DNA from: Yinghuangia soli
GTDB taxonomy: Bacteria > Actinomycetota > Actinomycetes > Streptomycetales > Streptomycetaceae
NCBI RefSeq assembly: GCF_021502675.1
Contig: NZ_JAKFHA010000010.1
Coordinates: 62,001 to 126,000, forward strand
Direction: 5' to 3'
DNA: 64,000 nucleotides
Positions 43,070 to 57,104 of the stretch are shown in pieces. The first letter of the stretch is position 1. Each line of letters starts with the position of its first letter. The translations under genes and the position numbers were made by a program. The notes beneath the pieces were generated by a model, which was given only the letters and a program-made list of their open reading frames with translations, did no database searches and was not told the DNA's origin.

Positions 43070-43135
43070 CCGGCCGGGCACGGCGGCGGGACCGCATTGC
43101 CACGTGAACTGCCCGGTCGTGGTAGGCATGGCAGG

Positions 43136-44824
43136 GTGAGGACTCCCAGCCGCCGTGCTCTTTTCCCGCGTCGCGCGATACCCGCCGCCGCGCTCGCCGC
43201 TGCCGCCGTGCTCGTCTCCGGATGCGCCGTGGGCGGTACCGGCGGCGTCGCGGGCAAGGCCCGCGAGTCGGTCGACACGACGCCCGGCGGCACCGCCGCG
43301 CCCGGCTCCGGCGGCCCGTCCGGCCCCGGCCTGGCGATCGCCCCCACGCCCGGCGGCAAGGGCCAGAACGACCCGGCGCTGACGTCCTTCTACACCCAGA
43401 AGCCCGCCTGGAAGGCGTGCCCGGACGACCCGGAGACCGACGGCGACGAGGGCGAGATGCAGTGCGCCAAGGTGCGCGTGCCGCTCGACTACGCCAAGCC
43501 CGAGGGCAAGTCGATCGAGATATCCGCGATGCGCCTGCAGGCCTCCGGCAAGGGCAAGCGAATAGGCACGCTCTTCACCAACCCGGGCGGCCCCGGCGGC
43601 TCCGGGATCGACTACCTCAAGAGCTGGGCCGCCGAGTACGACGCGGACATCCGCAAGAGCTTCGACATCGTGGGCTTCGACCCGCGCGGCGTCGGCGAGA
43701 GCGCCAAGGTCGTCTGCCTCTCCGACGAGCAGCGCGACCGGATGAACGCCGAGGACGGGCCGGACCCCAAGGACACCGCCGCCTCGGACGCGTTCGCCAA
43801 GGCCCAGGACGAGGAGTTCTCGGCCGGCTGCCAGTCCCGGTCCGGCGAGCTGCTGCCGCACGTCGGCACCCGCAACGTGGCGCGCGACATGGACATCCTG
43901 CGCGTGCTGGCCGGCGACCCGAAGCTCAACTACCTGGGCTACTCGTACGGCACCTACCTCGGCGCGCTGTACGCCGAGGAGTTCCCCGACCGGGTGGGCC
44001 GCCTCGTCCTCGACGGCGCCGTGGACCCGGCCGCCGACCCGCTGGACGACTCGATCGGCCAGACCGTCGGCTTCGAGCAGTCCTTCACCCGGTTCGCCAA
44101 GGATTGCGCGAAGCGCCCCTCGTGCCCGCTGGGCACCGACCCGGCCCGCGCCGCGCTGGTCGGCGTCGACTTCCTGGACAGCCTGCGCACCAACCCGCTG
44201 CCGAGCCGCCTCGATGAGCGCAAGCTGACCTCCAGCCTCGGCTGGACCGGGATGATCCGGCTGCTCTACGCGGACGAGGACCAGGGCTGGGAGGCCCTGC
44301 GCAGCGCGTTCGACATGGCCATGAAGCGCGGCGACGGCACCGCGTTCGTGGCGTACGCCGACGACTACAACGGCCGCGACGAGAACGGCCGCTACGACGG
44401 CTCGATGGACGCGCTGCGGGTCATCGGCTGCGCGGACGGCATGGCGGAGGCGCCCAGCCCGGCCCGCGTCCAGCAGGTCCTGGACCAGCTGCGCCGCGAG
44501 GCCCCGCTGTTCTCCCGGGACAGCACCCCGGCCGACTTCTCGGGCCCGGGCTGCCCGTCGTGGCCGTTCCGCACCGCCGAGAAGCCGCACACGGTCAAGG
44601 CGCCGGGCAGCGACCCGATCCTGGTGATCGGCACCACGGGCGACCCGGCGACGCCGTACGCGGCCTCCGAGCGGCTCGCCGCGGGCTTCGAGAACGCCAC
44701 CCTGCTGACCCTCGAAGGCGAGGGCCACACGGCCTACGGCCGCGGCAACGCGTGCATCGATGCGGCGGTCGACGCGTACCTGACCCAGGGCAAGATGCCC
44801 GCCGAGGGCAAACGCTGCAGCTGA
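43136..44824 (+). CDS. Secreted tripeptidyl-aminopeptidase-type lipoprotein (2 of 3)
   Basis: A 562-residue paralogue of the preceding gene with the same layout: signal peptide with lipobox LVSGC, TNPGGPGGSG, catalytic GYSYGTYLG, TGDPATPYAASERLAAG and EGEGHTAYG. The two share long identical stretches (for example the VKAP...TGDPATPY region), which indicates tandem duplication. The GTG at 43136 follows GGCAGG. It lies 66 bases downstream of copy 1 and is probably co-transcribed. Confidence 0.92.
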   Translation: MRTPSRRALFPRRAIPAAALAAAAVLVSGCAVGGTGGVAGKARESVDTTPGGTAAPGSGGPSGPGLAIAPTPGGKGQNDPALTSFYTQKPAWKACPDDPETDGDEGEMQCAKVRVPLDYAKPEGKSIEISAMRLQASGKGKRIGTLFTNPGGPGGSGIDYLKSWAAEYDADIRKSFDIVGFDPRGVGESAKVVCLSDEQRDRMNAEDGPDPKDTAASDAFAKAQDEEFSAGCQSRSGELLPHVGTRNVARDMDILRVLAGDPKLNYLGYSYGTYLGALYAEEFPDRVGRLVLDGAVDPAADPLDDSIGQTVGFEQSFTRFAKDCAKRPSCPLGTDPARAALVGVDFLDSLRTNPLPSRLDERKLTSSLGWTGMIRLLYADEDQGWEALRSAFDMAMKRGDGTAFVAYADDYNGRDENGRYDGSMDALRVIGCADGMAEAPSPARVQQVLDQLRREAPLFSRDSTPADFSGPGCPSWPFRTAEKPHTVKAPGSDPILVIGTTGDPATPYAASERLAAGFENATLLTLEGEGHTAYGRGNACIDAAVDAYLTQGKMPAEGKRCS

Positions 44825-45000: not shown

Positions 45001-46539
45001 TTGAGGCATGCGAACCGGGCGGTGCAGGCTCTCACCGGTGCGGTCCTGGCCACCGCGCTCCTGCTGTCCGGATGCAGCGGCGCCGGCGACGTCAAGAAGT
45101 CCCCCGGCGCGTCCGGGACCCCCGCCCCCGGTGCGCCGCCCGCTGCGCTTCCGATGCCCGAGGCCGCGGAGATCGACTGGAAGGCCTGCGAGGGCAGCCA
45201 GTTCGAATGCGGCACTCTCACGGTCCCGGTCGACTACGCCGACCCCGGCGGCGACCGCACCAAGATCGCGCTGATCCGCAAGAAGGCGACCGGCCCGGAC
45301 CGCATCGGCTCGCTGGTGGTCAACCCCGGCGGCCCGGGCGGCTCCGGCGTCGACTTCGCGCGCTACGCCGCCTCGCAGTTCCCGCGGACCGTGCGCGACC
45401 GCTACGACATCGTCGGCTTCGACCCGCGCGGCGTCGGGCACAGCACCCCGGTCAAGTGCCTGTCCGACGACGCGATGGACGAGTACACCCAGCTCGACCA
45501 GACGCCCGACGACGGCAGTGAAGTATCCGCCCTCGTGACCGGCGCCACCGCGTTCGGCAAGGCCTGCCAGGCCGAGACCGGACCGCTGGTCGCGCACGTG
45601 AGCACCGTCGACGCGGCCCGCGACATGGACCAGATCCGCGAGGCCCTCGGCGACGCCAAGCTGTACTACTTCGGCGCTTCGTACGGCACCTTCCTGGGCG
45701 CCACGTACGCCGAGCTCTTCCCGGCCAACGTCGGCCGCTTCGTCCTCGACGGCGCCGTCGACCCCAGTCTCTCCGCGGCCACCGCGAACCGCCTCCAGGC
45801 CGGCGGCTTCGAGACCGCCCTGAACGCCTACGCCGACAACTGCGTGGCCGGCGGCTCCTGCTTCCTCGGCCCCACCCGCGAGGCCGTCCTGGCCCGCATC
45901 CAGGCCCTCCTGGCCGAACTGGACGCCAAGCCCCTCCCCGGCGACGGCACGCGCGACGTCAACGAGGCCATCGCCACCACCGGGATCCTCTCCCCGCTCT
46001 ACTCCCGCGACCAGTGGCCCCAGCTCACCCGCGCCCTCCAGGCCGCCCTGCGCGGCGACGGAGACCTCCTCCTGGACCTCAACGACCAGTACTACGAACG
46101 CAGCTCCGACGGCCACTACGCCAACCTCATGTACGCCAACGCCGCCGTGAACTGCCTCGACCTGCCGCCCGCCGCCACCACCCCCGACCAGGTCCGCGCC
46201 CAGGTCCCCGAGTTCGAGCAGACCTCCCCGACCTTCGGCCGCGCCCTCGCCTGGGCCGGCCTCACCTGCGGCACCTGGCCCGTCCCGGCCACCGGCCGCC
46301 CCCACGAGATCCACGCCCCCGGCGCCGCCCCCATCCTCGTCGTCGGCACCACCCGCGACCCGGCCACCCCGTACGCCTGGTCCCAGGCCCTCGCCGCCCA
46401 GCTCGACTCCGGCACCCTCCTCACCTACGACGGCGACGGCCACACCGCCTACCTGCGCGGCAGCACCTGCATCGACACCGCCGTCGACGCCTACCTCCTC
46501 ACCGGCACCGCACCCCCCGACGGCAAAACCTGTAATTGA
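45001..46539 (+). CDS. Secreted tripeptidyl-aminopeptidase-type lipoprotein (3 of 3)
   Basis: A 512-residue, more diverged third member: lipobox LLSGC at about residue 25, VNPGGPGGSGVDF, catalytic serine in GASYGTFLG, TTRDPATPYAWSQ and DGDGHTAYLRG. The TTG at 45001 is the start, with GAGGGG upstream; no ATG/GTG alternative precedes the signal peptide. The last 500 bases use CCC/CTC/CAC-type codons with unusual regularity. It is the last gene before tRNA-Thr. Confidence 0.9.
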   Translation: MRHANRAVQALTGAVLATALLLSGCSGAGDVKKSPGASGTPAPGAPPAALPMPEAAEIDWKACEGSQFECGTLTVPVDYADPGGDRTKIALIRKKATGPDRIGSLVVNPGGPGGSGVDFARYAASQFPRTVRDRYDIVGFDPRGVGHSTPVKCLSDDAMDEYTQLDQTPDDGSEVSALVTGATAFGKACQAETGPLVAHVSTVDAARDMDQIREALGDAKLYYFGASYGTFLGATYAELFPANVGRFVLDGAVDPSLSAATANRLQAGGFETALNAYADNCVAGGSCFLGPTREAVLARIQALLAELDAKPLPGDGTRDVNEAIATTGILSPLYSRDQWPQLTRALQAALRGDGDLLLDLNDQYYERSSDGHYANLMYANAAVNCLDLPPAATTPDQVRAQVPEFEQTSPTFGRALAWAGLTCGTWPVPATGRPHEIHAPGAAPILVVGTTRDPATPYAWSQALAAQLDSGTLLTYDGDGHTAYLRGSTCIDTAVDAYLLTGTAPPDGKTCN

Positions 46540-46594: not shown

Positions 46595-46668
46595 GCCGCC
46601 TTAGCTCAGTCGGCCAGAGCGACGCACTCGTAATGCGTAGGTCAAGGGTTCGATTCCCTTAGGCGGCT
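46595..46668 (+). tRNA. tRNA-Thr (anticodon CGT)
   Basis: A 74-base cloverleaf: acceptor stem GCCGCCT/AGGCGGC, anticodon stem ACGCA/TGCGT, loop CTCGTAA with anticodon CGT (reads ACG), T-arm AAGGGTTCGATTCCCTT. CCA is not encoded. Its 3' half is the left att site of the island that follows. Confidence 0.97.
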
Positions 46669-46689
46669 CCCCAAGAAGGCCAGGTCAGA
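46627..46689 (+). repeat. Left attachment repeat (attL)
   Basis: 63 bases identical to 56894-56956. The identity starts at the first base of the anticodon loop, runs through the tRNA 3' end and stops at the terminator loop. Beyond the 4-base loop (TTCG here) another 14 bases match. The site rebuilds an intact tRNA. Confidence 0.95.
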
Positions 46690-46707
46690 TTCGTCTGACC
46701 TGGCCTT
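46676..46707 (+). terminator. tRNA-Thr terminator, TTCG loop
   Basis: 14-bp perfect stem AAGGCCAGGTCAGA / TCTGACCTGGCCTT closed by a TTCG tetraloop, eight bases after the tRNA. Its left arm belongs to the att repeat. Confidence 0.92.
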
Positions 46708-46894
46708 CTGGCTTTCCGTAGCCGACCGCTGCGGCTATGGGCAGCTCCCGCAGCCGTCCTGCGTGAGCGGATGTGTGAGCACTCCGGGCTTTTGTGCCAT
46801 GCACGCCGGCGCACGTCACGGCACAGCCGATCCGGCCTGCCAGGGCCTCCGCAGTCGTGTTGCACCGCACCCGCAGATGCGGAAGGTGCTTTCC

Positions 46895-47295
46895 GTGTGG
46901 CAGGCGACCGTCTCACCCTGTGCCCGGCACCGCGAACAGGATGGTATGTGCGTCGTCGAACTGCGCGGCGAGGTCGACGTGGCCACACGCGGGGCCATCA
47001 CCGAGGTGCTCGACGACCTGACCCGGGCCCCCGTCCGCGCTTGGTCATCGACCTGCGTCCGGTCGCCTTCATGGACACGACCATGCTGAACATCCTCTGC
47101 CGCATCAGGCCCCGGACGCTCCGCCCCGGCGGCCTCCGGCTGGTCAGCACCGATCCCCTGGTGCTTCGCATGCTTGTGGCCACCCGCCTGGACGGCCGGT
47201 TCCCGCTCCACCGGACCTTGGCGGACGCCTTGCTCGCGTCCACGCCACCCGCTGCCTGGCCCTCCCCAGGGACTGTGCCGTGGGATCCCCGGTGA
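46895..47295 (+). pseudogene. STAS anti-sigma antagonist, frameshifted
   Basis: The first part (GTG 46895, GGAAGG eight bases upstream) reads CVVELRGEVDVATRGAITEVLDDLTRAP, then the frame goes wrong at about 47035 in a CCCCC run. The rest of a STAS domain continues in the next frame as PRLVIDLRPVAFMDTTMLNIL..., through to 47295. The shift needs one missing or two extra bases. The usual phospho-acceptor serine position is Thr (DTTMLN). Either a real null allele or a homopolymer base-call error. Confidence 0.75.
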
Positions 47296-47308
47296 CGTGA
47301 CGGCGAGT

Positions 47309-47881
47309 TCAGCCTACGGCGGCCGCGATGGGGAAAGCGCCGTCTCTCGTGGCGCGGAGATGGCCGCCTTCGGCTTCCCAGTCTGTCTCCGAGGGGTCGT
47401 CGGCCCCCTGGAGGTCGGTGGTGCGGGCCTGGCCAGGCGTGCTCATGGCGTGGACCAGCGCAGTGGCGGTGCGCATGTCGCCTGCCGTCGCCGCGGCCGC
47501 CATCATCCGCTGCGCTGTGTCCGCGGCGGTCTCCGGCGGAACGACGAGGAGTTCCCAGCGCCCCGCGCGGTGCGACAGGAGCATGATCTCGTGGAGGTCC
47601 TGCTCGTCGGTGAACCAGCCGACCTTGACCAGGCGCCCGGAGACCGGGACCCGCCGGGGAACGCTCTGCCAGAGCGTGGGGTTCACCGTCGCGCGGGTGA
47701 TCATGCCCATGTCATCCATTGCCCTTGCCAGGGAGGGGAGTTCGAGGGCGAGATCGCGAGAGTAGGGCCACCACGCGCCGTCGAGCCGACCTGCGGCCTG
47801 TCCGGGCGGGGTCAGCGCGATACGCGCGGGGATGGTGTGCAAACGTTCGGTGGTCGCCAGGCGATCGTCGGTCGCGGTCAT
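47309..47881 (-). CDS. DUF5994-type protein
   Basis: A 190-residue cytosolic protein of a family common in actinomycetes (DUF5994 as I recognise it). Landmarks are RLDGAWWPYSRDLALELPSL, the central VKVGWFTDEQDLHEIMLLS and WELLVVPPETA. No catalytic residues are evident. The ATG at 47881 has GGAGG at a long spacing of 12 bases. The same frame is open upstream into a decayed second copy, so a long fused frame exists but is not the gene. Function unknown; homologues often sit beside STAS/ANTAR stress regulators, as here. Confidence 0.75.
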   Translation of the reverse strand: MTATDDRLATTERLHTIPARIALTPPGQAAGRLDGAWWPYSRDLALELPSLARAMDDMGMITRATVNPTLWQSVPRRVPVSGRLVKVGWFTDEQDLHEIMLLSHRAGRWELLVVPPETAADTAQRMMAAAATAGDMRTATALVHAMSTPGQARTTDLQGADDPSETDWEAEGGHLRATRDGAFPIAAAVG

Positions 47882-48056
47882 GATGCGAACCTGCCTCCGG
47901 AAGGGCTTCCGGCATGGTTGCTCGCCGAGCACGACACCGATATCGAAGTCGGCGTACGAAGTGTCCTCGGTACTCCCACAGTACTGCGGCATGGACCGGC
48001 GCGGGCGTTGCGCTGCGCATGAGTGTGAGTGCGGGGCAGAACCGGACTCATGACCG

Positions 48057-48480
48057 TCAGGTCGCAGGGCCGCCCTCGGGATGGATGCCGGCGTCGACGA
48101 GGATCTTCGCGGCCAGTGCAAGGTTCCCAGGTCCAGAGCTCTGGCCATGGCCCGCTGAGCTTGGCGCCGGGTCGCGTGCGGCGGCACGACGAGCAGCGCG
48201 ACGAGGTTCCCGTCGTCCCGCCTGAACAGCACGGTGTCGTCACCGAGCGGAAACCAGTCGACGTGCACGATCCGGCGGGCCGCGAACGGGTGCTCTGGGA
48301 CTGCATCCCATGAGTCCCGGTCCAGGCCGACCCGGCTGATCGGGCCGATGTGTCCGGTCAACGCGGTGACAAGGCCGCGCAGTTGCGAGCCGACGTCGCG
48401 GGACCGCGGCCACTACGCGCCGTCCGGCACGCCCTGGCGACGTCCGATCGCCTGCGGCCTGAGCAGGAGCGTGCCGGGGC
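48057..48480 (-). pseudogene. Decayed second DUF5994 copy
   Basis: A paralogue of the neighbouring gene, in the same direction. The conserved DGAWWP motif reads DGA-stop-WP: TAG at 48413-48415 replaces a Trp codon. Downstream, the frame runs through VHVDWFPLGDDTVLF and LVALLVVPPHA but then shifts near 48125: the expected ending (AAKILVDAGIHPEGGPAT, stop at 48057-48059) is in another frame. Two independent lesions make it a true pseudogene. The 5' end is not definable; no start with a ribosome site is seen. Confidence 0.75.
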
Positions 48481-48526
48481 CGGAGGCAGCCCTGCATCGG
48501 CGGAAGGGCGCGCGAATACGGATCCT

Positions 48527-48561
48527 GATGTGCGGATGCCCCGGAATCAGACTTCCAGGCG
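48527..48561. repeat. 35-bp repeat, copy A (end of DUF1003 gene)
   Basis: Matches 53139-53173 at 32 of 35 positions, same orientation. Here it covers the last codons (RLEV-type end), the stop and the bases just downstream of the DUF1003-like gene. Confidence 0.8.
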
Positions 48562-48924
48562 CGGTCTGGCGTCGATGCGGGCTGCGTCGGCCAGGCGGAT
48601 CCGGCTGAACAGGACGAGCGGTGCCGCGTAGGCGGCTTGCGGCCCCAGGATCAGTGCGAGATCGAGCAGCAGTCCGGGCATCCAGCGGTCCTCGGGGGTC
48701 ACACGGTTGACGACGGCCCAGACGACGGCGACGGCCGTCTGGGCGACGATGAACAGCCAGGAGTCGAAGGCCCTGGCGACGCGACCGGCGAGCCAGGCGC
48801 CCGCTGCTTGAGCGCGGTGGCTGCGCCGATCGCCAGTAGGCCGATCGCTCAAACGGGACTGGGTGTCCGGACGGTTGCGGCGGTCGGGGGCGCGCCTGGG
48901 CGTGCGGCGCAGGGATATCGGCAT
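48547..48924 (-). CDS. DUF1003-like small membrane protein
   Basis: A protein of about 125 residues with two membrane segments in the DUF1003 pattern: FDSWLFIVAQTAVAVVWAVVN, then a polar turn and MPGLLLDLALILGPQAAYAAP, then a basic tail. An Arg-rich N-terminal 50 residues precede. The start is uncertain: ATG 48924 lacks a ribosome site, and the frame is open upstream into the GlsB gene. It is probably the last gene of an Asp23-GlsB-DUF1003 unit. Function unknown. Confidence 0.65.
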   Translation of the reverse strand: MPISLRRTPRRAPDRRNRPDTQSRLSDRPTGDRRSHRAQAAGAWLAGRVARAFDSWLFIVAQTAVAVVWAVVNRVTPEDRWMPGLLLDLALILGPQAAYAAPLVLFSRIRLADAARIDARPRLEV

Positions 48925-48955
48925 CGGGGTGGCGTTCGCGATGGGCGGCGCGATG

Positions 48956-49267
48956 TCACCTTCGCGCGGTTCTCCGCCGCAGGCCCCTGCGGCCGCGGCT
49001 GTGGCCTGAGCCGCGGTTGGTGATTGCGCGGTAGGCCACGAGCAGCAGGATGGATCCGGCGATGGCGCTGACCCAGGTGGAGAGGTTGAAGAAGCCCTGT
49101 GTCCCGTCGACGTCGAAGACCTGGACGGCGATGAAGCCTCCGACCAGGGCACCGGTCATGCCGATGAGTGCGGTGACGATGAGGCCGCCGGGGTCCTGGC
49201 CGGGGACCAGCATCTTGGCGATGATCCCGGCCGCCAAGCCGAGGACGATCCAGGCGATGATGCCCAT
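48956..49267 (-). CDS. GlsB/YeaQ/YmgE-family membrane protein
   Basis: A 103-residue protein with three hydrophobic helices and family marks MGIIAWIVLGLAAGIIAKML, GGLIVTALIGMTGALVGGF and the C-terminal WVSAIAGSILLLVAYRAI, plus an Arg-rich tail. Family members are stress-induced envelope proteins. The ATG at 49267 has AAGGAG upstream. It follows the Asp23 gene by 130 bases on the same strand, a pairing known for general stress proteins. Confidence 0.9.
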   Translation of the reverse strand: MGIIAWIVLGLAAGIIAKMLVPGQDPGGLIVTALIGMTGALVGGFIAVQVFDVDGTQGFFNLSTWVSAIAGSILLLVAYRAITNRGSGHSRGRRGLRRRTARR

Positions 49268-49397
49268 GGCGGTACTCCTTGTGAGCGTTGATGCGTGGTC
49301 TGCGGCGACCGGCTTGCGGGCCGGTCGTGCAGAGCCGCGGACCGCAGAGTTGCGGCCGGCGGCGATCGTGCTTTTCGTCGCCCGCGCGGGAGCGGCG

Positions 49398-49937
49398 TCA
49401 CTCAACGCGCGGTGTGGTGTTCTGCGCCGCGTCGTCGAAGAGGTGGACGTCGTGGACGGCGATGTCCACGGCGACGACTTCCAAGCCGGTCATGCGCTCG
49501 ACCGCGTCGGTGACATGGGCCCGGACTGCGGCTGCGACGTCGGCGATGCTCACTCCGTACTCGACGACCACCGCGAGGTCGACGGCGGTCTGCTTCTCGC
49601 CGACTTCGACCTTCACGCCGCGGGAGGCGTCGGTGCCGGTCCCGGGGACCCGGTCGCGCACTGCGCCGTAGCCGCGGGTGAACCCGCCGCCCATGGCATG
49701 GATGCCGCGGACCTCGCGGGCGGCCATCCCGGCGATCTTCGCCACGACGGAGTCGGCGATGCTGGTCGTGCCGCGGCTCGCGGGCGCCGTGGCGGTCCCG
49801 GCCGGCGAGGATGGTGGCGGCGTCGGTGCGAAGACGCGGGGTTCGACCGGCGCGGACGCGAGGTCGGGTCCCGGCCCGGGCCGGATGTGCGCCTGGGGCT
49901 GCGGCTTGGGCAGGGTCTGGCTGATCGGCTCCGTCAT
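49398..49937 (-). CDS. Asp23/Gls24-family envelope stress protein
   Basis: A 179-residue protein. A Pro-rich N-terminal 65 residues precede an Asp23/Gls24 domain (about 68-170) with SIADSVVAKIAGMAAREVRGI and VKVEVGEKQTAVDLAVVVEYG. The family forms membrane-associated assemblies under stress. The ATG at 49937 follows a strong GAGGAGGTGG. It is the first gene of the minus-strand unit. Confidence 0.93.
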   Translation of the reverse strand: MTEPISQTLPKPQPQAHIRPGPGPDLASAPVEPRVFAPTPPPSSPAGTATAPASRGTTSIADSVVAKIAGMAAREVRGIHAMGGGFTRGYGAVRDRVPGTGTDASRGVKVEVGEKQTAVDLAVVVEYGVSIADVAAAVRAHVTDAVERMTGLEVVAVDIAVHDVHLFDDAAQNTTPRVE

Positions 49938-50659
49938 GCGAAGCCACCTCCTCGGGAGGTTGGCGGATGTGCGGAGGGTGAAGGGCAGCTCCCGCCCTGT
50001 CCGACTCCGCAGCCGGGCCCGGCGGCCCTCCTCGCTGCGCTCACGGCGTTGCGGCCCGTACTCGGGTACGGCCGAGATACCCGGGCGGGTCCGGCGTCTC
50101 GTGATGTGCGGAGTCGGACGAGGCGGGCGCTCTGGCGAACCTCGTGGGCCGCGGGCCCGGCTGTGGTGCGGGGTGGCTGCGTGGCGTGGCGTGGTGTGCG
50201 TTCGGGTTCCTTCCGGGGCGGCCCGCGCAGGTGTTGGCACGTCGGCCGACGTGGGGTGCCGGCCCGGGGCCGGTCGGGCATCCTCAGGACGAGCGCGGAA
50301 CCACCGGCGGCTCTGTTGCCTGCGTACACCACGCGCCTCCTCGGAGCGGACGGTTCGTCTCGCTGCCGGGGGCCAGGGCGTCACTGCCAACGTAGTCCCG
50401 CGCGGGCACCGCGAACAGACCCCGAGTTCGACCGTTACGCGCTGTCGGCCCGCGGGTCAGGAGACGCACCGATTGGAAACTCCGTTCAGGACACCGCCCG
50501 TTGCCTCCTGTTCGATAGGGGTAACCGGGACTAATGTGGGCTTTGCGGCCCCGGCCCCCGGCAGCACGGAACCCCTTTCCGCGCCCCTGGTGGGCGCTCT
50601 GTGCGGGCATCGCTCCTTCGCCCGTCGGCGTCATCCGCACCCGACGACAGGCATCACCG
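49938..50659. other. 722-base divergent region inside the island
   Basis: Separates the Asp23 unit from the plus-strand small-protein genes. It holds a general-stress-type promoter match at 50500-50524 and otherwise no gene I can support; long frames across it are Arg/Pro-rich and lack start signals. Confidence 0.55.
50500..50524 (+). promoter_or_regulatory. SigB-type (general stress) promoter match
   Basis: GTTG, 15-base spacer, GGGTAA closely fits the streptomycete SigB-group consensus (GTTT-N14-16-GGGTAT). It points at the small membrane protein gene at 50660. Confidence 0.5.
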
Positions 50660-51022
50660 ATGTACGTGCTCATCCTCGTGCCCGTGTTCCCCTTCCTCCT
50701 GCTCGGTGCCGTCCTGGGCCTGTCGTGGTGGGAGGACCGGATCCTGCCGTCGGCCGACCGCCCCGACCCGTTCGCCCCGGTGCTGCGGGCGCCGCAGCCA
50801 CCCGCAGCGACCGAGACGCCCCGAGGCGCAACCCACGTGCTACCCGGCCGCGAAGCGGGACCACGACGGCCTGGCACACCGCGAACTCCACTGCACGGGG
50901 CACCCGTTGACAGGCGCCGCGGCCGGGAGTTGACTGAAGGGCACAGCAGGAGGGCGATGACGCGCCGGAGTCTCCGGGCAGCCCGCCCCCTGCCTGCTTC
51001 GCCGGGACCCCGCGGATCGTGA
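50660..51022 (+). CDS. Small membrane protein with Pro-rich tail
   Basis: A 120-residue frame starting MYVLILVPVFPFLLLGAVLG (one membrane helix), then WWEDRILP and a Pro/Arg-rich tail. No recognised domain. The ATG at 50660 lacks a clear ribosome site, but the frame lies 136 bases downstream of the SigB-like promoter. Unknown function; it may be a stress-induced membrane peptide like its neighbours. Confidence 0.5.
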   Translation: MYVLILVPVFPFLLLGAVLGLSWWEDRILPSADRPDPFAPVLRAPQPPAATETPRGATHVLPGREAGPRRPGTPRTPLHGAPVDRRRGRELTEGHSRRAMTRRSLRAARPLPASPGPRGS

Positions 51023-51040
51023 CCGTGTGGAGGCCCGGCC

Positions 51041-51196
51041 GTGCGCTTCTGGATCGCCCTTCTCCTGCTCGCCGCCGTGCTGTTCGGCGCCGGGCTCTTC
51101 ACCTTGCCGTTCTGGTGGATCGTCGGGGCGTTCGCTGTGGTGATCGCCCTGTTCGCCGCGGGGCGCCACGGCCACCGCCGTCGATCCCCACGGTGA
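51041..51196 (+). CDS. 51-residue hydrophobic membrane peptide
   Basis: GTG 51041 to TGA 51194-51196: MRFWIALLLLAAVLFGAG, then a second hydrophobic stretch (FTLPFWWIVGAFAVVIALFAA) and a basic tail GRHGHRRRSPR. The ribosome site GGAGG is seven bases upstream. The 43-base leader with this site is nearly duplicated before the small gene at 56518, and both peptides contain FTLP in a hydrophobic setting, so they are paralogous modules. Function unknown. Confidence 0.65.
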   Translation: MRFWIALLLLAAVLFGAGLFTLPFWWIVGAFAVVIALFAAGRHGHRRRSPR

Positions 51197-51259
51197 ACGC
51201 GTCCGACGCGAAAAGGCCGCGTGCGTACAAGTCCGCAGCACCGACCCGGGAGGACTGCC

Positions 51260-51445
51260 ATGAGCATCGTCGCCAAGCTCAAGAACCGAGCACGCACACT
51301 GCAAAGCCGCTTGCCGCAGAACCACGGGCGCGACCCAGCCGGCCGCGGCACCGGCGGAACAGGCCACACGCAGCGGTCGCCCGGCGGCCGGAACCAGTCC
51401 CTCGCGCGAGCGGTGAGGGCGTTGCGCAGCGCTGTCAGGCGCTGA
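51260..51445 (+). CDS. 61-residue basic peptide
   Basis: ATG 51260 with GGGAGGA upstream. The sequence starts MSIVAKLKNRARTLQSRL and is Arg/Gly/Gln-rich throughout. An amphipathic helical start and high charge recall small stress proteins, but I recognise no family. It sits in the run of small genes between the SigB-like promoter and mIHF. Confidence 0.55.
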   Translation: MSIVAKLKNRARTLQSRLPQNHGRDPAGRGTGGTGHTQRSPGGRNQSLARAVRALRSAVRR

Positions 51446-51555
51446 CCGGACCCTCTGTGTCCGGCGCCGGCCCCCGACCGTCGGGCGCCGGACACAGAGA
51501 CCACCGCGACCGGCGCCGGTCCCGTCCCGGACGACCGAGAGATGAGGGGATTCCC

Positions 51556-51933
51556 ATGGCACTGCCCATGCTCACTGCTGAGGACCGCCGGGCCGCGCTG
51601 GCGAAGGCGGCGGCCGCCCGCCGGGAACGCGCCGTCCTGCTGGCCGACATCAAGGACGGCTCGCTCACCTTGGCCGCCCTGTTCGACCGAGGCGGTCCGG
51701 TGGCCGGCAAGACCCCGGTGCGCCGGGTGCTGGAGGCGCTGCCCGGCGTCGGCAAAGTCCGCGCCGCACGCATCCTGGACCAGATGGACATCCCGGCGAA
51801 CCGCAGGCTCAAGGGCCTCGGCCCGCGCCAGCGTGACCGGCTCCTCGAACTGTTCCCGCCCCGGCCCCGAAGCGTCGCCCGCCGCCGGGAGATGTCCGGA
51901 CCGCGCGGCGCGGCGGCCGCCGCCGTGCGCTGA
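51556..51933 (+). CDS. Actinobacterial integration host factor (mIHF) paralogue
   Basis: A 125-residue DNA-binding protein of the mIHF family. Helical N-terminus, then the helix-two-turn-helix LPGVGKVRAARILDQMDIP (about 75-94) and GLGPRQRDRLLELF. The core housekeeping sIHF of streptomycetes is about 107 residues and located elsewhere, so this is probably an extra, island-borne copy; its basic Ala/Arg tail is extra. The ATG at 51556 follows GAGGGGA. It may organise island DNA or assist recombination. Confidence 0.9.
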   Translation: MALPMLTAEDRRAALAKAAAARRERAVLLADIKDGSLTLAALFDRGGPVAGKTPVRRVLEALPGVGKVRAARILDQMDIPANRRLKGLGPRQRDRLLELFPPRPRSVARRREMSGPRGAAAAAVR

Positions 51934-52070
51934 TGCCTTCGGTGGCGGCCGCAGCCGCTACGGCCGCCGTTGACCCCTGTCCGGCTTCCCACCCCTCCGA
52001 TGCGCCGGGCAGAGTTCCATCAGGACAGCAACCGGCGAACGGCACGGGCAGGGAGGGCGGTTGCGAGGCC

Positions 52071-52250
52071 ATGAGCCGTTGGCAGGCCGAGGACGAACAG
52101 GCAGCCATCGCGGACATGTCGGCCGCCGCTTACCACGATGCTGCCGACGGACACCCGCACTTTCGCGAGGAGGTCCGGCGGTGGTTCGCGGAGGACGCTG
52201 CGCGGCCCGGGTTCGCGGTGGCCGGCTGGGCCGAATGCGCGTACGGCTAA
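52071..52250 (+). CDS. 59-residue acidic protein, uncertain
   Basis: From ATG 52071 (GAGG close upstream) a short acidic, helical sequence with WQAEDEQAAIADMSAAAYHD and FREEVRRWFAEDA. It has protein-like composition but no recognised family. The frame is open for 138 bases upstream without a better start. Could be a fragment of a longer ancestral gene. Confidence 0.4.
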   Translation: MSRWQAEDEQAAIADMSAAAYHDAADGHPHFREEVRRWFAEDAARPGFAVAGWAECAYG

Positions 52251-52441
52251 CGCGCCGACCCCGGCGGGGCACCGTGGCGCGAGTTCCTCGGCGAACTCCC
52301 CCCAGGTCGGGCTGTTCGACACTGTGTCTCCTGCCGGGTCCTGGACACGTCCGTCGGACCCCTCAGCGGCATACGCGGCAGAGTGACGGTCTGGCCGACG
52401 CAGCCTGGTCTGCGCGGGAGGCGTCGCCCTGTGCAGGTCGG

Positions 52442-52609
52442 TCAGCGCACTGGTCGTCGGCCGGAGCGTCGCCAGTGGACAGCGAGGTAGACCAGTGCGG
52501 CGACGAAGACGGCGATGCCGATGAACAGCAGGTAAAGAAGGCCGTCGGCGGCCACGCCGATGATGCCGAGCACGATCGCGATGACAAGCAGGATCAGGAA
52601 GGGATTCAC
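52442..52609 (-). CDS. 55-residue hydrophobic membrane protein
   Basis: GTG 52609 to TGA 52442-52444: VNPFLILLVIAIVLGIIGVA, then LLYLLFIGIAVFVAALVYLA and a basic tail RRSGRRPVR. Two membrane helices. GGGAGG lies 11 bases upstream. It lies 31 bases after the PRC-barrel gene on the same strand, so they are likely co-transcribed. Small hydrophobic proteins of this kind are common in actinomycete stress clusters. Confidence 0.7.
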   Translation of the reverse strand: MNPFLILLVIAIVLGIIGVAADGLLYLLFIGIAVFVAALVYLAVHWRRSGRRPVR

Positions 52610-52640
52610 GGCGCGGATGCCTCCCTCTTCGGTGTGGGGT

Positions 52641-52997
52641 TCAGCGACGGGCGAGCTGGCGCTCGCCGTCCGCTCCCGGTTGGTACGGCAGGTCGTAGTG
52701 CCGGAAGACTGCTTCCTCGTCCTCGGCGGGCAGGACGTCGTCGGTGCCGATCGACGGGCACTGCTTCACCCGCCCCTTGTCGTGCGCGACCCGCACATAG
52801 CCGGGCCCGACGACGGCGTCCGCAAGGGGGACGAAGACGAGGCGGTGGCGGGTGGGCAGCCCTACCTTGACGGTGGCCATGGACGGTTCGTCGGTGCTGG
52901 TGTCGACGTAGACCGCTTCCAGTACCCCGATTTTGTGGCCGCTCGGGTCGACGACATCGTGTGTACGCCACTCGCGGATATCCGCTGCCTGGATCAT
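52641..52997 (-). CDS. PRC-barrel domain protein
   Basis: A 118-residue protein. The N-terminal 85 residues form a PRC-barrel (DVVDPSGHKIGVLEAVYVDTSTDEPSMATV, then LVFVPLADAVVGPGYVRV), followed by a short acidic tail (DEEAVFRHYDLPY). PRC-barrels bind RNA or protein partners; in actinomycetes this subtype is common in stress clusters. The ATG at 52997 has AGGAG six bases upstream. Confidence 0.9.
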   Translation of the reverse strand: MIQAADIREWRTHDVVDPSGHKIGVLEAVYVDTSTDEPSMATVKVGLPTRHRLVFVPLADAVVGPGYVRVAHDKGRVKQCPSIGTDDVLPAEDEEAVFRHYDLPYQPGADGERQLARR

Positions 52998-53138
52998 CCC
53001 GGCTCCTGTCGCGTGGTGGCTGCGTGCGAGCTCTTCCTTTCAGCGTGCCCCCGGACAGCCGGGCACGCCAACCCAGGCAGACGGGCGGCAGCGCCTTCGG
53101 CACAGGAAGTCGTGCGAAGGCGCGCCACAGCACATCCG

Positions 53139-53173
53139 GATGTGCCGATGCCCCGGAATCAGGCTTCCAAGCG
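53139..53173. repeat. 35-bp repeat, copy B
   Basis: Same-orientation near copy of 48527-48561. On the minus strand it still reads RLEA-stop and the following bases, so it looks like the surviving tail of a second, deleted DUF1003-type gene. Confidence 0.75.
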
Positions 53174-53266
53174 CAGTTGCGCCGACCGCTCGTACGTTCT
53201 GACGCGCAAGGTCCGGGTAGCCGAACGAAGAGACTGGGACACAACGCCCACCTGGGTGCGGCTTCC

Positions 53267-53509
53267 GTGCTCGTGCTCATCACCTACGCCACACGCCACG
53301 GCTCGACCCGGTCGATCGCGGACCGGATCGGCGAACGGCCGGCCGAGCACAGCGTCGAAGTCGAGGTCTTGGAGACCTGCCAGGTCGGGCACCTGTGGCA
53401 GTACCGAGCCGTGATCGCGGGCAGCGCGATCCACGACGGCGACTTCCGCGACTGGGCCGAGATCGACGAGTGGGCCCTCGGCATCGCCGAAAAGCTCACG
53501 GTGGAATGA
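53267..53509 (+). pseudogene. Flavodoxin-like protein with internal deletion
   Basis: An 80-residue frame (GTG 53267). It starts like HemG/flavodoxin-type proteins with VLITYATRHGSTRSIADRIGE (FMN phosphate loop) and continues to AVIAGSAIHDGDF. It then jumps straight to the family's C-terminal helix RDWAEIDEWALGIAEKL. About 80 residues of the middle, including most FMN contacts, are missing without a frameshift. It cannot be a normal flavodoxin; a clean in-frame deletion is the simplest reading. No good ribosome site. Confidence 0.7.
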
Positions 53510-53973
53510 CACACCCCGGCCGACAGCGTCGCCCCGGCATCACCCGAGCCTCGAGTCCGAGTCGGACCGCTGACAACACCGCGTCCCCTTGCGGGGTTCC
53601 GGACATGGTCGGGGTGTGGATGGCCGACGGCCGACCCCTACCGGCGCCCTCCACCCTGCGCCGTACGCGATGCATGTCAGGTTGACGGAGTTTGCCGACC
53701 CACGGGACTGCGATGAGGACTAGGCTGCGGAACGGACGTCCCAGACCCCGACGGCACACTGGCACCGATCACGGATGTCCCAGGGAGCGGAAGCTTCGTC
53801 CGATCACCCGGGCATCCCCGAGGGAATCGACCGCGTCCCACCGCCCCGGACTCCGGCTGCCGGACCGGCTCTTCGCCCGCCGAACGAACCACACCACCGT
53901 GGAACTACCCACGCTGGTCCGGGAAACCGGTTCGCGTGCGGTGAGCCCGGTCGGCTCTCGGAACCGAGGCGCC
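53510..53973. other. 464-base intergenic region
   Basis: Upstream region of the STAS-ANTAR gene set. TTGACG at 53682 and TAGGCT at 53721 resemble promoter hexamers but are badly spaced. Nothing coding is supported. Confidence 0.5.
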
Positions 53974-54573
53974 ATGCCCAATCGCCAGACCGTCCCTGTC
54001 CACCTCGCCGTCTTCCGCTGCGACACCGTCACCGGAGCCCTGCTCACCGTCCAGGGCGAGATCGACGTCGACTCCGCGCCGCAGCTGCGCGGCTGCATGA
54101 CGCGCTGCCTGCTCGACGGCTACTCCACCATCGACGTCGACCTGTCCGGCGTGACCTTCTGCGACAGCAGCGGCCTGCACGCCTTCCTCGACACCTCCCG
54201 CGACGCCGCCAGGGCCGGCGGCCACCTGCGGCTGCACAACCTGAGCCCGATCGTTGCCCGGCTCCTCACCCTCACCGGTACCGGCACCATCCTCCTCGGC
54301 CTTCCCGCCCGGCCGACGCCCCCGAAACCCGACGCCGACGCCGACGAGCCTCCCGTCGGCCCCACCGAGGCAGGGCAGGTCATCGTCATCAGCAGCGCCT
54401 CCACCGACCCGCCAGGGCCGGAACGGCCCAGCGCCTGGCGGGTCCTGGGTTGGCTGCGCGGCGACCCGCTGCGGGAGGCGCTCCTCGGCAACCCCCGTGC
54501 GTCGCTCACGTCCGCGTTCGCGAGCCACGCCCAGCGAGCCACGAGCGAAGTGACCCGGTCGTGGTGGGGATAG
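53974..54573 (+). CDS. STAS-domain anti-sigma factor antagonist with C-terminal extension
   Basis: A 199-residue protein. An intact STAS domain (about 8-105) has LTVQGEIDVDSAPQLRG and the phospho-acceptor motif CDSSGLHAF (serine near 65). An acidic Asp/Pro linker and a 60-residue tail ending SWWG are unlike BldG or RsbV. It probably takes part in partner switching with an anti-sigma kinase encoded elsewhere; none is in the island. The ATG at 53974 follows GAGG. Confidence 0.88.
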   Translation: MPNRQTVPVHLAVFRCDTVTGALLTVQGEIDVDSAPQLRGCMTRCLLDGYSTIDVDLSGVTFCDSSGLHAFLDTSRDAARAGGHLRLHNLSPIVARLLTLTGTGTILLGLPARPTPPKPDADADEPPVGPTEAGQVIVISSASTDPPGPERPSAWRVLGWLRGDPLREALLGNPRASLTSAFASHAQRATSEVTRSWWG

Positions 54574-54631
54574 GCGCGGGGACGGGCGCAGGACCGCGCC
54601 GCCCCGACGTCCCGCGAACGCCGCGTGCCGC

Positions 54632-55438
54632 ATGCATTCCTCCGTGCCGGACGTGCGGCAGGTGAACGCCGTCGGCCGCTCGGCGCGGATCCGGGTCCTG
54701 GTCGCGGAGCACGCCGCCCGGCGCGGAGCCCAGGTGGGCGTGCTGGACGTCTGCACCGCCGCCGTTGCCGACCTCCCGGTGCAGGGCGCCGGGGTCTCCG
54801 CGATGTCGCTCTCCAAGTCCAGCCACCCCCTGTGCAGCACCGACGACGTCAGTGAGCAGTTGGAGGAACTGCAGCTCACCCTCGGCGAAGGCCCGTGCGT
54901 GGACGCCTTCGCTCAGGGCACCGCTGTGCTGACAGCAGACCTGCTCGTCGACGACGTCCTGGGCCGCTGGCCGGCGTTCGCACCCGCCGCGGCCCAGGCC
55001 GGCGCGCGGGCGGTCTTCGCCTTCCCGCTGCGGATCGGCGCCACCAGACCCGGTGTCCTGGACCTGTACGCCCACCAGCCCGGCGGCCTGGACCCCGAAC
55101 AACTCGCCGACGCCAAGGTCTTCGCCGACACCGCCACCCTCGTCCTGCTCCAGACCCCCCATACCGGACACAGCACACCGGCGACCCTCGTCGACGGCGG
55201 CACGCTTGACCTCTACTTCGCCGACCTGGGCGGCTACCGCGCCGAGATCGACCAGGCCACCGGCATGCTCACCGAACAACTCGGCGTCGGTATCGACGAG
55301 GCGTTCATCCGGCTGCGCGCCTACGCGTACGCCCACGGACGCCGTCTCGCCGACGTGTCCCGCGACGTCGTGGCCCGCACCCTGCGCTTCACCCCGGACC
55401 CTCCACCGAACAAGGGGACGATGCACGATGACATCTGA
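54632..55438 (+). CDS. GAF-ANTAR regulator 1
   Basis: A 268-residue protein: GAF domain (about 20-185; LGEGPCVDAF, WPAFAPAAAQAGARAVFAFPL) followed by an ANTAR domain (about 205-255; EIDQATGMLTEQLGVGIDEAFIRLR). ANTAR domains bind paired RNA hairpins and prevent termination, here presumably gated by a signal at the GAF domain. The start at ATG 54632 lacks a ribosome site; GTG 54662 is possible. Likely co-transcribed with the second GAF-ANTAR gene 80 bases on. Confidence 0.9.
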   Translation: MHSSVPDVRQVNAVGRSARIRVLVAEHAARRGAQVGVLDVCTAAVADLPVQGAGVSAMSLSKSSHPLCSTDDVSEQLEELQLTLGEGPCVDAFAQGTAVLTADLLVDDVLGRWPAFAPAAAQAGARAVFAFPLRIGATRPGVLDLYAHQPGGLDPEQLADAKVFADTATLVLLQTPHTGHSTPATLVDGGTLDLYFADLGGYRAEIDQATGMLTEQLGVGIDEAFIRLRAYAYAHGRRLADVSRDVVARTLRFTPDPPPNKGTMHDDI

Positions 55439-55518
55439 CACGACGCCGGGAAGCATGGACTCCACCGCATTTCAGCGTCCCCCCGCAACGGGGTCGGCCG
55501 CGATTGAGAGCGCCCCTG

Positions 55519-56283
55519 ATGGATGAACGGCTCCTGCTCCGGACCTTCGTCGAACTCGCCGACAACCTGGTCGCCGACTTCGACCTGATCGACTTCCTCC
55601 GACTGCTCACCGATCGGTGCGTCGGCATGCTCGGCGTCACCGCGGCCGGCGTCCTGCTGGCGGACCCGCAGGGCGACCTGCGGGTCATGGCGGCCTCTGA
55701 CGAACGCGTACGCCTCCTCGAACTGTTCCAGCTGCAGAACGACGAAGGCCCCTGCCTGGAATGCTTCCGCACCGGCGTACCCGTCACGGTCCCCGACCTC
55801 GCGATGCACACTGACCGCTGGCCGCGGTTCGCCGCCGAGGCACGGCACAGCGGATACACCGCCGTCCAGGCCTTCCCCATGCGCCTGCGCGACGAAGTCG
55901 TCGGCGCCCTCAACCTCTTCCGCACCGACGTCGGAGACTTCGACGGGGTCGACACGCAGATCGCCCAGGCCCTCGCCGACGTCGCCACCATCAGCCTCCT
56001 CCAACAACGCTCCGCCGACCGCAGCGACGTGCTCAACGAGCAGCTCCAGGCCGCACTCACCAGCCGCGTCCTGATCGAGCAGGCCAAAGGCAAACTCGCC
56101 GAACGCCACGGCCTCGACATGGAGCAAGCCTTCACCGCGCTGCGCAGCTACGCCCGTTCCCACAACCGCCGCCTCGCCGACCTCGCCCAAGCCTTCGTCG
56201 ACGGCACCGAATCCCTCACCGACCTGGGCACCGACCCGCAGACCACGAGCGTGCGACCCTCGCGCCATCCGCATCCCGCGTGA
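55519..56283 (+). CDS. GAF-ANTAR regulator 2
   Basis: A 254-residue protein with the same order: GAF (about 5-160; NDEGPCLECFRTG, WPRFAAEARHSGYTAVQAFPM) and ANTAR (about 175-230; LIEQAKGKLAERHGLDMEQAFTALR). It is better conserved in the ANTAR core than regulator 1. The ATG at 55519 follows GAGAG. Target RNAs are not identified; the duplicated leaders at 50998 and 56476 are candidates only by proximity. Confidence 0.92.
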   Translation: MDERLLLRTFVELADNLVADFDLIDFLRLLTDRCVGMLGVTAAGVLLADPQGDLRVMAASDERVRLLELFQLQNDEGPCLECFRTGVPVTVPDLAMHTDRWPRFAAEARHSGYTAVQAFPMRLRDEVVGALNLFRTDVGDFDGVDTQIAQALADVATISLLQQRSADRSDVLNEQLQAALTSRVLIEQAKGKLAERHGLDMEQAFTALRSYARSHNRRLADLAQAFVDGTESLTDLGTDPQTTSVRPSRHPHPA

Positions 56284-56475
56284 CGGCGCGCACCGCAACC
56301 GGCCCGCCGCTACGAACGGACGAGATGCGCGGCCCGGTCGGCGAGGGCTGCGGCGATGCCGCCCTAACTCACCAAGCGTGGACGCTCGTTGACATAGGGC
56401 AATCATCGGGCGTTAACTGGCAAATACGGCGCAGGGCGACAAGACCCCGGGTATCCAGGGGAAGCGCCCCGCCGA

Positions 56476-56517
56476 TTCGCCGAGACCCCGCGGACCCGAC
56501 CGTGTGGAGGCCCGGCC
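56476..56517 (+). repeat. Duplicated leader, copy 2 (copy 1 at 50998-51040)
   Basis: 42 bases nearly identical to the 43 bases before the 51041 gene, including the ribosome site GTGGAGGCCCGGCC, and directly abutting the start codon in both cases. The copy 1 leader can pair GCCGGG (51001-51006) with CCCGGC (51034-51039), enclosing the ribosome site. Confidence 0.85.
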
Positions 56518-56703
56518 TTGATCGCCCTGATTCTTCTTGCCTTGCTGGTCCTGATCCTGTTCGTCGCCGGCTTCACCCTCCCGCTGTTCGTCGTCGCAGC
56601 GGCGGTGTCGGTGATCGCCTGGATCCTCGGATCGATCCGCTACCGCCGCGAGCACCGAGACCGCTACCACCAAGGGCGCCGGGAAGGATGGCATCGTTGG
56701 TAG
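56518..56703 (+). CDS. 61-residue hydrophobic membrane peptide (paralogous module)
   Basis: TTG start at 56518 directly after GGAGGCCCGGCC. It reads MIALILLALLVLILFVAGF, then TLPLFVVAAAVSVIAWILG and a His/Arg/Tyr-rich basic tail ending EGWHRW. Same plan as the peptide at 51041: two helices, FTLP-type junction, basic tail, same leader. TTGACA at 56389 could belong to its promoter. Function unknown. Confidence 0.65.
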   Translation: MIALILLALLVLILFVAGFTLPLFVVAAAVSVIAWILGSIRYRREHRDRYHQGRREGWHRW

Positions 56704-56893
56704 TCACCTGAGTGGTCCACGGACCGTGGTGCCATAGCTTGAGGAGCCCGCGTTCTGCGTGAGCGATGCGTGAGCGGATGTGCCGGTACTCGCGCGCACG
56801 GAGGCCGACGGAGGCGCAGGTCCGGGTGTGCAGAGCGGTGAAAACCTGGACAGGGCGGACTCCGCAGGACGCCAGACCATGATTCATCGGGTG

Positions 56894-56956
56894 CTCGTAA
56901 TGCGTAGGTCAAGGGTTCGATTCCCTTAGGCGGCTCCCCAAGAAGGCCAGGTCAGA
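56894..56956 (+). repeat. Right attachment repeat (attR), displaced tRNA-Thr 3' half
   Basis: 63 bases identical to 46627-46689; not preceded by a tRNA 5' half, so this is the displaced original 3' end. The following terminator has an AGCT loop in place of TTCG, after which identity resumes for 14 bases. Confidence 0.95.
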
Positions 56957-56974
56957 AGCTTCTGACCTGGCCTT
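56943..56974 (+). terminator. Displaced tRNA-Thr terminator, AGCT loop
   Basis: The same 14-bp stem as at 46676-46707 but closed by AGCT, so the whole element is one uninterrupted palindrome, followed by TTGG. Probably the ancestral chromosomal terminator. Confidence 0.85.
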
Positions 56975-57104
56975 TTGGTATTTCGCGGGGCGGATGGCCG
57001 GGGTCCGGCGGGCGCCTGGTGCCGGTTGCTCTGTGCGTGTTGCCTCCGGCGTGGCTACCTGCCGGCTGCCGACCGGACCGTTCGGGTCGTGGCATGTTCG
57101 GCGT

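Follow-up and report, generated by a model that had tools for sequence, protein, structure and literature searches.

A stress-regulator island without an integrase at a tRNA-Thr gene of Yinghuangia soli is probably a decayed integrative element

How did a set of stress-regulator genes in Yinghuangia soli come to lie between two perfect copies of a tRNA-Thr 3′ half, with no integrase at its side? The DNA analysed here, hereafter the window, comprises positions 62001-126000 (64,000 nt) of contig C2 in a 9.7-Mb draft genome of 91 contigs, the assembly of which is 96% complete; positions below are those of the window unless a contig is named, and genomes, contigs and loci are designated by handles beginning with G, C and L, respectively. 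An earlier note on this DNA had proposed that the element either lost its integrase and is frozen or depends on an integrase acting in trans. We favor the former, with a probability of about 0.86: the island would be a decayed integrative element of the type driven by the tyrosine integrase of G018 and L059, and now a cis-mobilizable element (CIME).

The two exact 63-bp copies (46627-46689 and 56894-56956) start 10,267 bp apart, enclose about 10.2 kb of cargo and have no leftward extension. As the earlier note stated, and as an exact-repeat search, ARAGORN and Rfam all confirmed, the repeat starts at the first anticodon-loop base of tRNA-Thr(CGT); it ends with the 5′ arm of a terminator hairpin. 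When mismatches are allowed, the repeat grows to 92 nt with 92% identity because a similar terminator hairpin stands at both copies. A chance origin of two exact 63-bp copies is far too improbable. The first 43 bases of the core, which are tRNA-derived, are identical in an integrase-bearing element of the congener G002; since the tRNA half is conserved across species anyway and the copies could have been identical from the start, repeat identity was set aside as a gauge of age. Apart from tRNA, no structured RNA reached the Rfam gathering score in the island. The ends carry the following features:

46595-46670, + strand: tRNA-Thr(CGT), the putative integration target, restored by an element-borne 3′ half (ARAGORN; Rfam RF00005)
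46627-46689, + strand: left attachment (att) core, 63 bp (exact repeat)
46674-46709, + strand: left terminator hairpin with 16-bp arms and a 4-nt loop (sequence; repeat family)
46760-46769, + strand: left arm-like repeat, a single TGCGTGAGCG unit at +90 relative to the tRNA end (motif comparison)
56756-56776, + strand: right arm-like repeat TGCGTGAGCG-A-TGCGTGAGCG, two units at -138/-127 relative to the right core (no other tandem copy occurs in the window)
56894-56956, + strand: right att core, the presumed displaced original 3′ half of tRNA-Thr (exact repeat)
56941-56976, + strand: right terminator hairpin, resembling those after the displaced copies in both congeners (sequence comparison)

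The arm-like repeats, the right-hand units of which start at 56756 and 56767, point to the integrase that would once have driven the element. Across 36 arbitrary stretches and other stretches of C2, amounting to 893 kb, TGCGTGAGCG was found as six single copies and never in tandem. Of the 20 loci that best match the G018 integrase, 19 have it beside the integrase gene, in two exact units at 18 of them and as a single unit at one (L314); the stretch covered for the twentieth (L315) contains neither a tRNA nor the motif. Offsets were measured for 10 of these 20 loci. Seven of them (six at Thr-CGT and one at Lys) have the first unit at +90 to +92, and the other three (Arg-CCT and Thr-TGT) have it at +80 to +82; at tRNA-Thr(CGT), every one of the six integrase-bearing loci with a measured left offset has +91 or +92. 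Within the stretches covered, the motif also occurs at both tRNA-Thr ends in G015 and G013, with right-end offsets of -136/-125 and about -124, respectively, and at the left end in G018 and G009. It is absent within 300 bp of the tRNA end from seven tRNA-Thr loci bearing other integrase types (G001, G002, G004, G008, G010, G031 and G034). Based on position, spacing and pairing, we infer that the TGCGTGAGCG repeats are putative arm-type integrase-binding sites. Because they pair with one tyrosine integrase family, the family of the lost integrase can be named, and our conclusion from these sequence comparisons is that the window element would once have been driven by a tyrosine integrase of the G018/L059 type.

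Relatives of the G018 integrase (E ≤ 1e-60) are encoded by 83 of 200 family genomes, and that of Y. soli is not among them. Where the best 20 loci adjoin a recognised tRNA or tRNA half, integrases of at least 71% identity lie at tRNA-Thr(CGT) and those of 63-65% at tRNA-Lys(TTT), tRNA-Arg(CCT) or tRNA-Thr(TGT). The target tRNA hence shifts inside one integrase family (L301-L320; Thr-CGT, Thr-TGT, Lys-TTT and Arg-CCT) with a nearly constant arm-like repeat, and these loci form a natural series for the study of target switching.

Loss of the integrase is seen in stages at the tRNA-Thr sites that bear the arm-like repeat. G018 has an intact integrase open reading frame (ORF), G015 a pseudogene with two stops, G013 a 32-aa fragment (78% identity), and G009 and the window have none. 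These sites belong to a locus that is an integration hotspot. When the joined flanks of the island were used as query, they matched in 41 of 41 genomes (Y. soli and 40 relatives), and 20 kb of the tRNA-Thr locus was compared in 20 of the 40 relatives. Of these 20, 13 show the same geometry, with a tRNA-Thr 3′ half displaced to within 20 kb downstream; this is not an unbiased rate since these loci were chosen partly for a second partial match. Seven of the 13 have a tyrosine-integrase ORF beside the tRNA (G001, G002, G004, G008, G031, G034 and, as a pseudogene, G015), and the bounded segments of the other six (G005, G007, G009, G013, G019 and G024) contain no Phage_integrase match. The possibility that the tRNA-Thr 3′ half was simply duplicated without integration accounts for nothing beyond the repeat itself. 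It is already contradicted by the anticodon stem-loop breakpoint that 13 of 20 relatives share, 7 of these 13 with an adjacent integrase, and by the arm-like repeats at both ends, and we regard it as scarcely credible.

The earlier note had reckoned with two findings that would speak against an island, namely simple tRNA duplication and relatives that all carry the same genes without the second repeat. Neither occurred: the DNA that the congeners G001 and G002 have at this tRNA is of another kind and includes an integrase gene, and the window's cargo was detected in none of the 20-kb stretches from the 20 relatives (E 1e-4). A variable region of about 50 kb, flanked by conserved core genes on either side, follows the tRNA; the island is its first 10 kb, and the genes common with G001 and G002 resume at about C2:158,300. 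No further att copy was found on contig C2. This variable DNA, together with the stacked att copies seen elsewhere (three in G002; also G282), would suit an alternative in which the bounded DNA never was one element, being instead what accretion and deletion left between two att copies, with cargo that arrived by other routes. However, unrelated ends would hardly both carry arm-like repeats at offsets like those of an element, and the 63-bp cores are identical, which makes such an origin quite improbable.

That the island has no integrase, as the earlier note held, agrees with a PF00589 profile search, which gave 16 Phage_integrase matches in the genome (14 over the cut-off) and none on contig C2. 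Remnants were also sought in the window island, in a related island on contig C35 of the same genome and in the L204 island; none was convincing, and the best match was the tRNA region read as the end of an att-overlapping integrase. In G008, G031 and G252 (L051, L056 and L116, beside tRNA-Thr), the integrase ORF runs into or across the tRNA gene, and att and the end of the integrase gene may overlap there.

The other proposal of the earlier note, dependence on an integrase in trans, did not hold for the present host, in which the genome-wide search that the note had called for found no cognate integrase. The best match to the G018 integrase reaches only 38% identity over part of the query. 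Among the host's own integrases, the nearest to any tRNA-Thr type (L014, 54% identity to the G001 integrase) adjoins tRNA-Lys(TTT), and contig C53 has, next to tRNA-Ser, an integrase with 44% identity to the G002/G008 type, its sequence divided between two reading frames. A resident trans-acting integrase was rejected on these grounds.

We therefore hypothesize the following course of events. An integrative element would have entered tRNA-Thr(CGT) by means of a G018/L059-type tyrosine integrase, and integration would have swapped the 3′ half of the tRNA gene for the element's copy and moved the original half downstream by 10.3 kb. Later losses would have removed the integrase and any accompanying transfer genes, and several cargo genes would have decayed; both att cores and, at each end, one or more arm-like repeats persist. 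The island would be immobile in its present host, although a newly acquired cognate integrase, acting in trans or from a tandem element, could possibly excise it or take it along. The binding of integrase to the repeats, the history of the island and its future mobility are accordingly worded here as what the sequences suggest. Arm-like repeats, a host devoid of that integrase family, the decay stages in relatives and the decayed cargo all favor the "lost integrase, frozen" half of the earlier proposal.

The anatomy of the island agrees with that of a CIME, as attL and attR are both kept (63-bp cores and arm-like repeats) and its own integrase and transfer genes are absent. The island may have arisen from an ICE or IME by deletion: its arm-like repeats match an integrase family, but integrase remnants were seen in relatives only and none in the island. 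The island has neither the integrase and the replication or transfer genes of an autonomous actinomycete integrative and conjugative element (AICE) or integrative and conjugative element (ICE), nor the excision and integration functions that an integrative mobilizable element (IME) possesses itself, and no cognate integrase, as a satellite would use, was found elsewhere in the same genome. Four observations weigh against a decayed element of this type. The left end has a single arm-like unit, whereas nearly all integrase-bearing loci have two. Searches with 19 integrases (tblastn) found no convincing integrase fragment in the island, and because none survives, the former integrase has to be deduced from the repeats alone. 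The cargo is absent from the 20 integrase loci with 1.5-kb flanks and from the 20-kb G018 stretch, and an autonomous element with this cargo is not shown. Finally, none of the relatives examined showed the strictly empty site that the earlier note had suggested looking for.

The presence of about 10.2 kb of stress-regulator cargo between the repeats, another claim of that note, was borne out by Pfam, which recognised DUF5994, partial DUF1003, Transgly_assoc/GlsB, Asp23, an H2TH-type mIHF-like protein, a PRC barrel, a flavodoxin fragment, STAS and two GAF-ANTAR proteins:

46883-47295, + strand: STAS gene, apparently frameshifted; the match covers only profile positions 41-106 and the N-terminal part seems, by eye, to lie in another frame (Pfam)
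47309-48361, - strand: one ORF made of two joined DUF5994 units, of which the upstream unit seems degenerate (Pfam, two stretches, which align with distinct DUF5994 positions of contig C35)
48547-49152, - strand: partial DUF1003 gene, profile positions 3-73 of 103 (Pfam)
48956-49267, - strand: GlsB/YeaQ-type small membrane protein, Transgly_assoc (Pfam)
49398-49937, - strand: Asp23/Gls24 family protein (Pfam)
50660-51022, + strand: small protein hyp50660, with an N-terminal hydrophobic stretch by eye, recurring in related islands (island comparison)
51041-51196, + strand: 51-aa hydrophobic protein (ORF)
51556-51933, + strand: mIHF-like protein, H2TH_5 (Pfam); similar DNA on plasmids is annotated mihF
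52071-52301, + strand: remnant with an in-frame stop, acetyltransferase-like by eye (tblastn, E 3e-4 to an L204-island protein)
52442-52609, - strand: 55-aa membrane protein, recurring in related islands (island comparison)
52641-52997, - strand: PRC-barrel protein, recurring in related islands (Pfam; island comparison)
53270-53509, + strand: flavodoxin fragment, profile positions 1-60 of 145 (Pfam)
53974-54573, + strand: STAS-domain protein, encoded by the gene that opens the recurrent module (Pfam)
54632-55438, + strand: GAF-ANTAR regulator 1 (Pfam)
55519-56283, + strand: GAF-ANTAR regulator 2 (Pfam)
56518-56703, + strand: 61-aa membrane protein with weak matches only (Pfam, PHROGs)

Several of these genes, a point that the earlier note had missed along with the arm-like repeats, apparently are broken, namely the first STAS gene, the DUF1003 and flavodoxin genes and the remnant at 52071-52301, the parent protein of which is encoded in the L204 island and is related to one in the G271 island. 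Searches of 18 of the larger island ORFs against Pfam and of 10 against PHROGs detected no relaxase, transfer or replication family. PHROGs gave a match for just one of the 10 cargo ORFs, that of the 61-aa membrane protein, and the family matched is of unknown function. The earlier remark that this cargo is unlike a phage or ICE backbone stands in the light of both databases, but the cargo is not unique, since the same module lies in other tRNA-bounded islands.

Relatives of GAF-ANTAR 1 (E ≤ 1e-30) occur in 77 of 297 family genomes, about 20 of them (Y. soli included) at about 60% identity or more. We collected 79 GAF-ANTAR 2 loci from the best 80 of 117, with up to 10 kb on each side; these loci are not independent. 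A displaced tRNA 3′ half was present in 16 of the 79 compared to 1 of 36 control stretches (P = 0.02) with a library of 30 tRNA types not drawn only from stress loci, and in 16 of 79 compared to 0 of 36 (P = 0.0025) with 15 types that included the stress-locus tRNAs; the enrichment depends on the tRNA library, and the 16 loci differ slightly between the two. An integrase-like ORF or fragment was found in five of the 79 loci (L147, L180, L190, L200 and L205), those of L200 and L205 being long, 8-9 kb from the GAF-ANTAR pair and not assigned to an element. Among the genes common to the stress islands, neither inspection by eye nor Pfam families yielded a candidate for an unknown recombinase. Eight doubly bounded stress islands, found while seeking such cases and hence not a random sample, all lack an intact integrase of their own:

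Island 1: the window, tRNA-Thr(CGT)
Island 2: contig C35 of the same genome, 2251-12499 (locus L126), tRNA-Ser(GGA), 10.1 kb, repeat from the anticodon loop
Island 3: L204, tRNA-Gly
Island 4: L178, two Met-type halves
Island 5: G199, tRNA-Thr(CGT), 27.4 kb
Island 6: distal segment in G282, tRNA-Pro
Islands 7 and 8: G271 and L147, tRNA-Arg, C-terminal integrase fragments kept

The C35 island has homologous STAS, GAF-ANTAR and DUF5994 genes in an order and orientation that differ from those of the window, and its two ends share no repeat of at least 11 bp that could represent arm sites. At tRNA-Pro(CGG) of G282 (contig C70, 11187-51461; L229, L230 and L114), an 11.8-kb integrase element is followed by a 28.4-kb stress segment without integrase, likely a CIME composite.

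These islands raise the question of whether they ever needed an integrase, as dedicated satellites would borrow the integrases of elements sharing their tRNA, either in trans or within tandem composites. The lack of an intact own integrase in eight of eight islands, the tandem at one tRNA-Pro in G282, the similar sizes (10.1 and 10.3 kb) of the two islands at two tRNAs of Y. soli and the retention of arm-like repeats in the window speak for such a lifestyle. Yet the C-terminal integrase fragments in G271 and L147 and a frameshifted integrase beside the cargo in G243 point to loss. Furthermore, G252 has a GAF-ANTAR pair near tRNA-Thr(CGT) with a G004/G010-type integrase ORF beside the tRNA (no second att copy lies within 60 kb), and L200 and L205 have their long integrase-like ORFs. 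The arm repeats belong to an integrase family that normally adjoins them, gene order and orientation vary among the islands, and 6 of the 13 bounded tRNA-Thr islands of relatives, which do not carry this cargo, also lack an integrase. We thus consider dedicated satellites very unlikely; such a lifestyle is possible but need not be invoked to explain the island, and the cases are too few to separate integrase loss in stress islands from that in others. A broader proposal is unlikely as well: STAS and tandem GAF-ANTAR islands, often with PRC-barrel, DUF5994 and Asp23 genes, would form a Streptomycetaceae class that spreads at several tRNAs without an integrase of its own, is moved by co-resident integrases via att cores and, at least here, arm-like repeats, and follows a satellite or CIME lifestyle selected for its stress cargo.

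A decayed element of the G018/L059 type has close parallels among known systems. CIMEs are described as lacking integration and transfer genes while keeping attL and attR (PMC5704250), and XSAM1, which lies beside pSAM2 in Streptomyces ambofaciens, is one of them (PMC4891641). The island resembles XSAM1 in its missing genes and kept attachment sites but measures about 10 kb rather than 42 kb and has no adjacent integrase-bearing element at present, and its mobilization is a prediction. The account of Streptomyces elements in PMC9513070 includes AICEs and ICEs decayed to cargo and two direct repeats, accretion, insertion at tRNA-Thr and, for accreted elements at one site, different integrases. 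The island shares the cargo with two direct repeats, the tRNA-Thr site and the accretion; the remnants pictured there keep truncated integrases, whereas the island has none and its integrase type is deduced from the arm-like repeats. A tRNA-Thr gene is also reported as the site used by pSE211-type AICE integrases (PMC3218068). G018-type elements at tRNA-Thr(CGT) (L059, L301-L309, L311 and L314) have the same tRNA, the same arm-like repeats and nearly the same offset as the island but carry an integrase, and the portion read of the G018 element includes, in addition, genes for a MobA/VirD2-like relaxase and DUF2637. The Streptomyces coelicolor islet Gi-7, at a Ser-tRNA GGA gene, has an 88-bp repeat with four mismatches, and its entry in PMC1934918 lists two transposon-related genes and no integrase; it is likened to the window island by anatomy, as a small tRNA island with a long near-perfect repeat, leaving cargo aside.

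Loss of the integrase at a busy hotspot is an ordinary fate; the cargo is less ordinary. The anatomy of such elements was already known, and we did not find this cargo or the arm-repeat assignment described in print; among the papers that a literature search listed, no title or abstract opening matched the STAS/GAF-ANTAR module or its island setting. Arm-like repeats at fixed offsets allow an island without integrase to be assigned to the integrase that it lost, which turns the alternative "frozen or satellite" into a testable one with a named helper. The repeated presence of a stress-regulator module in tRNA-anchored Streptomycetaceae islands after the loss of mobility genes would fit selection keeping the cargo.

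Outside the island, two adjacent alpha/beta hydrolase genes (43097-44824 and 45001-46539), paralogous by eye, the second with a TAP-like domain, precede the tRNA gene. To the right, about 39 kb (C2 118957-158298, from position 56957 of the window) is variable compared to the congeners and begins with a glycosyltransferase gene and what appears, by eye, to be a gene of the UDP-sugar dehydrogenase type.

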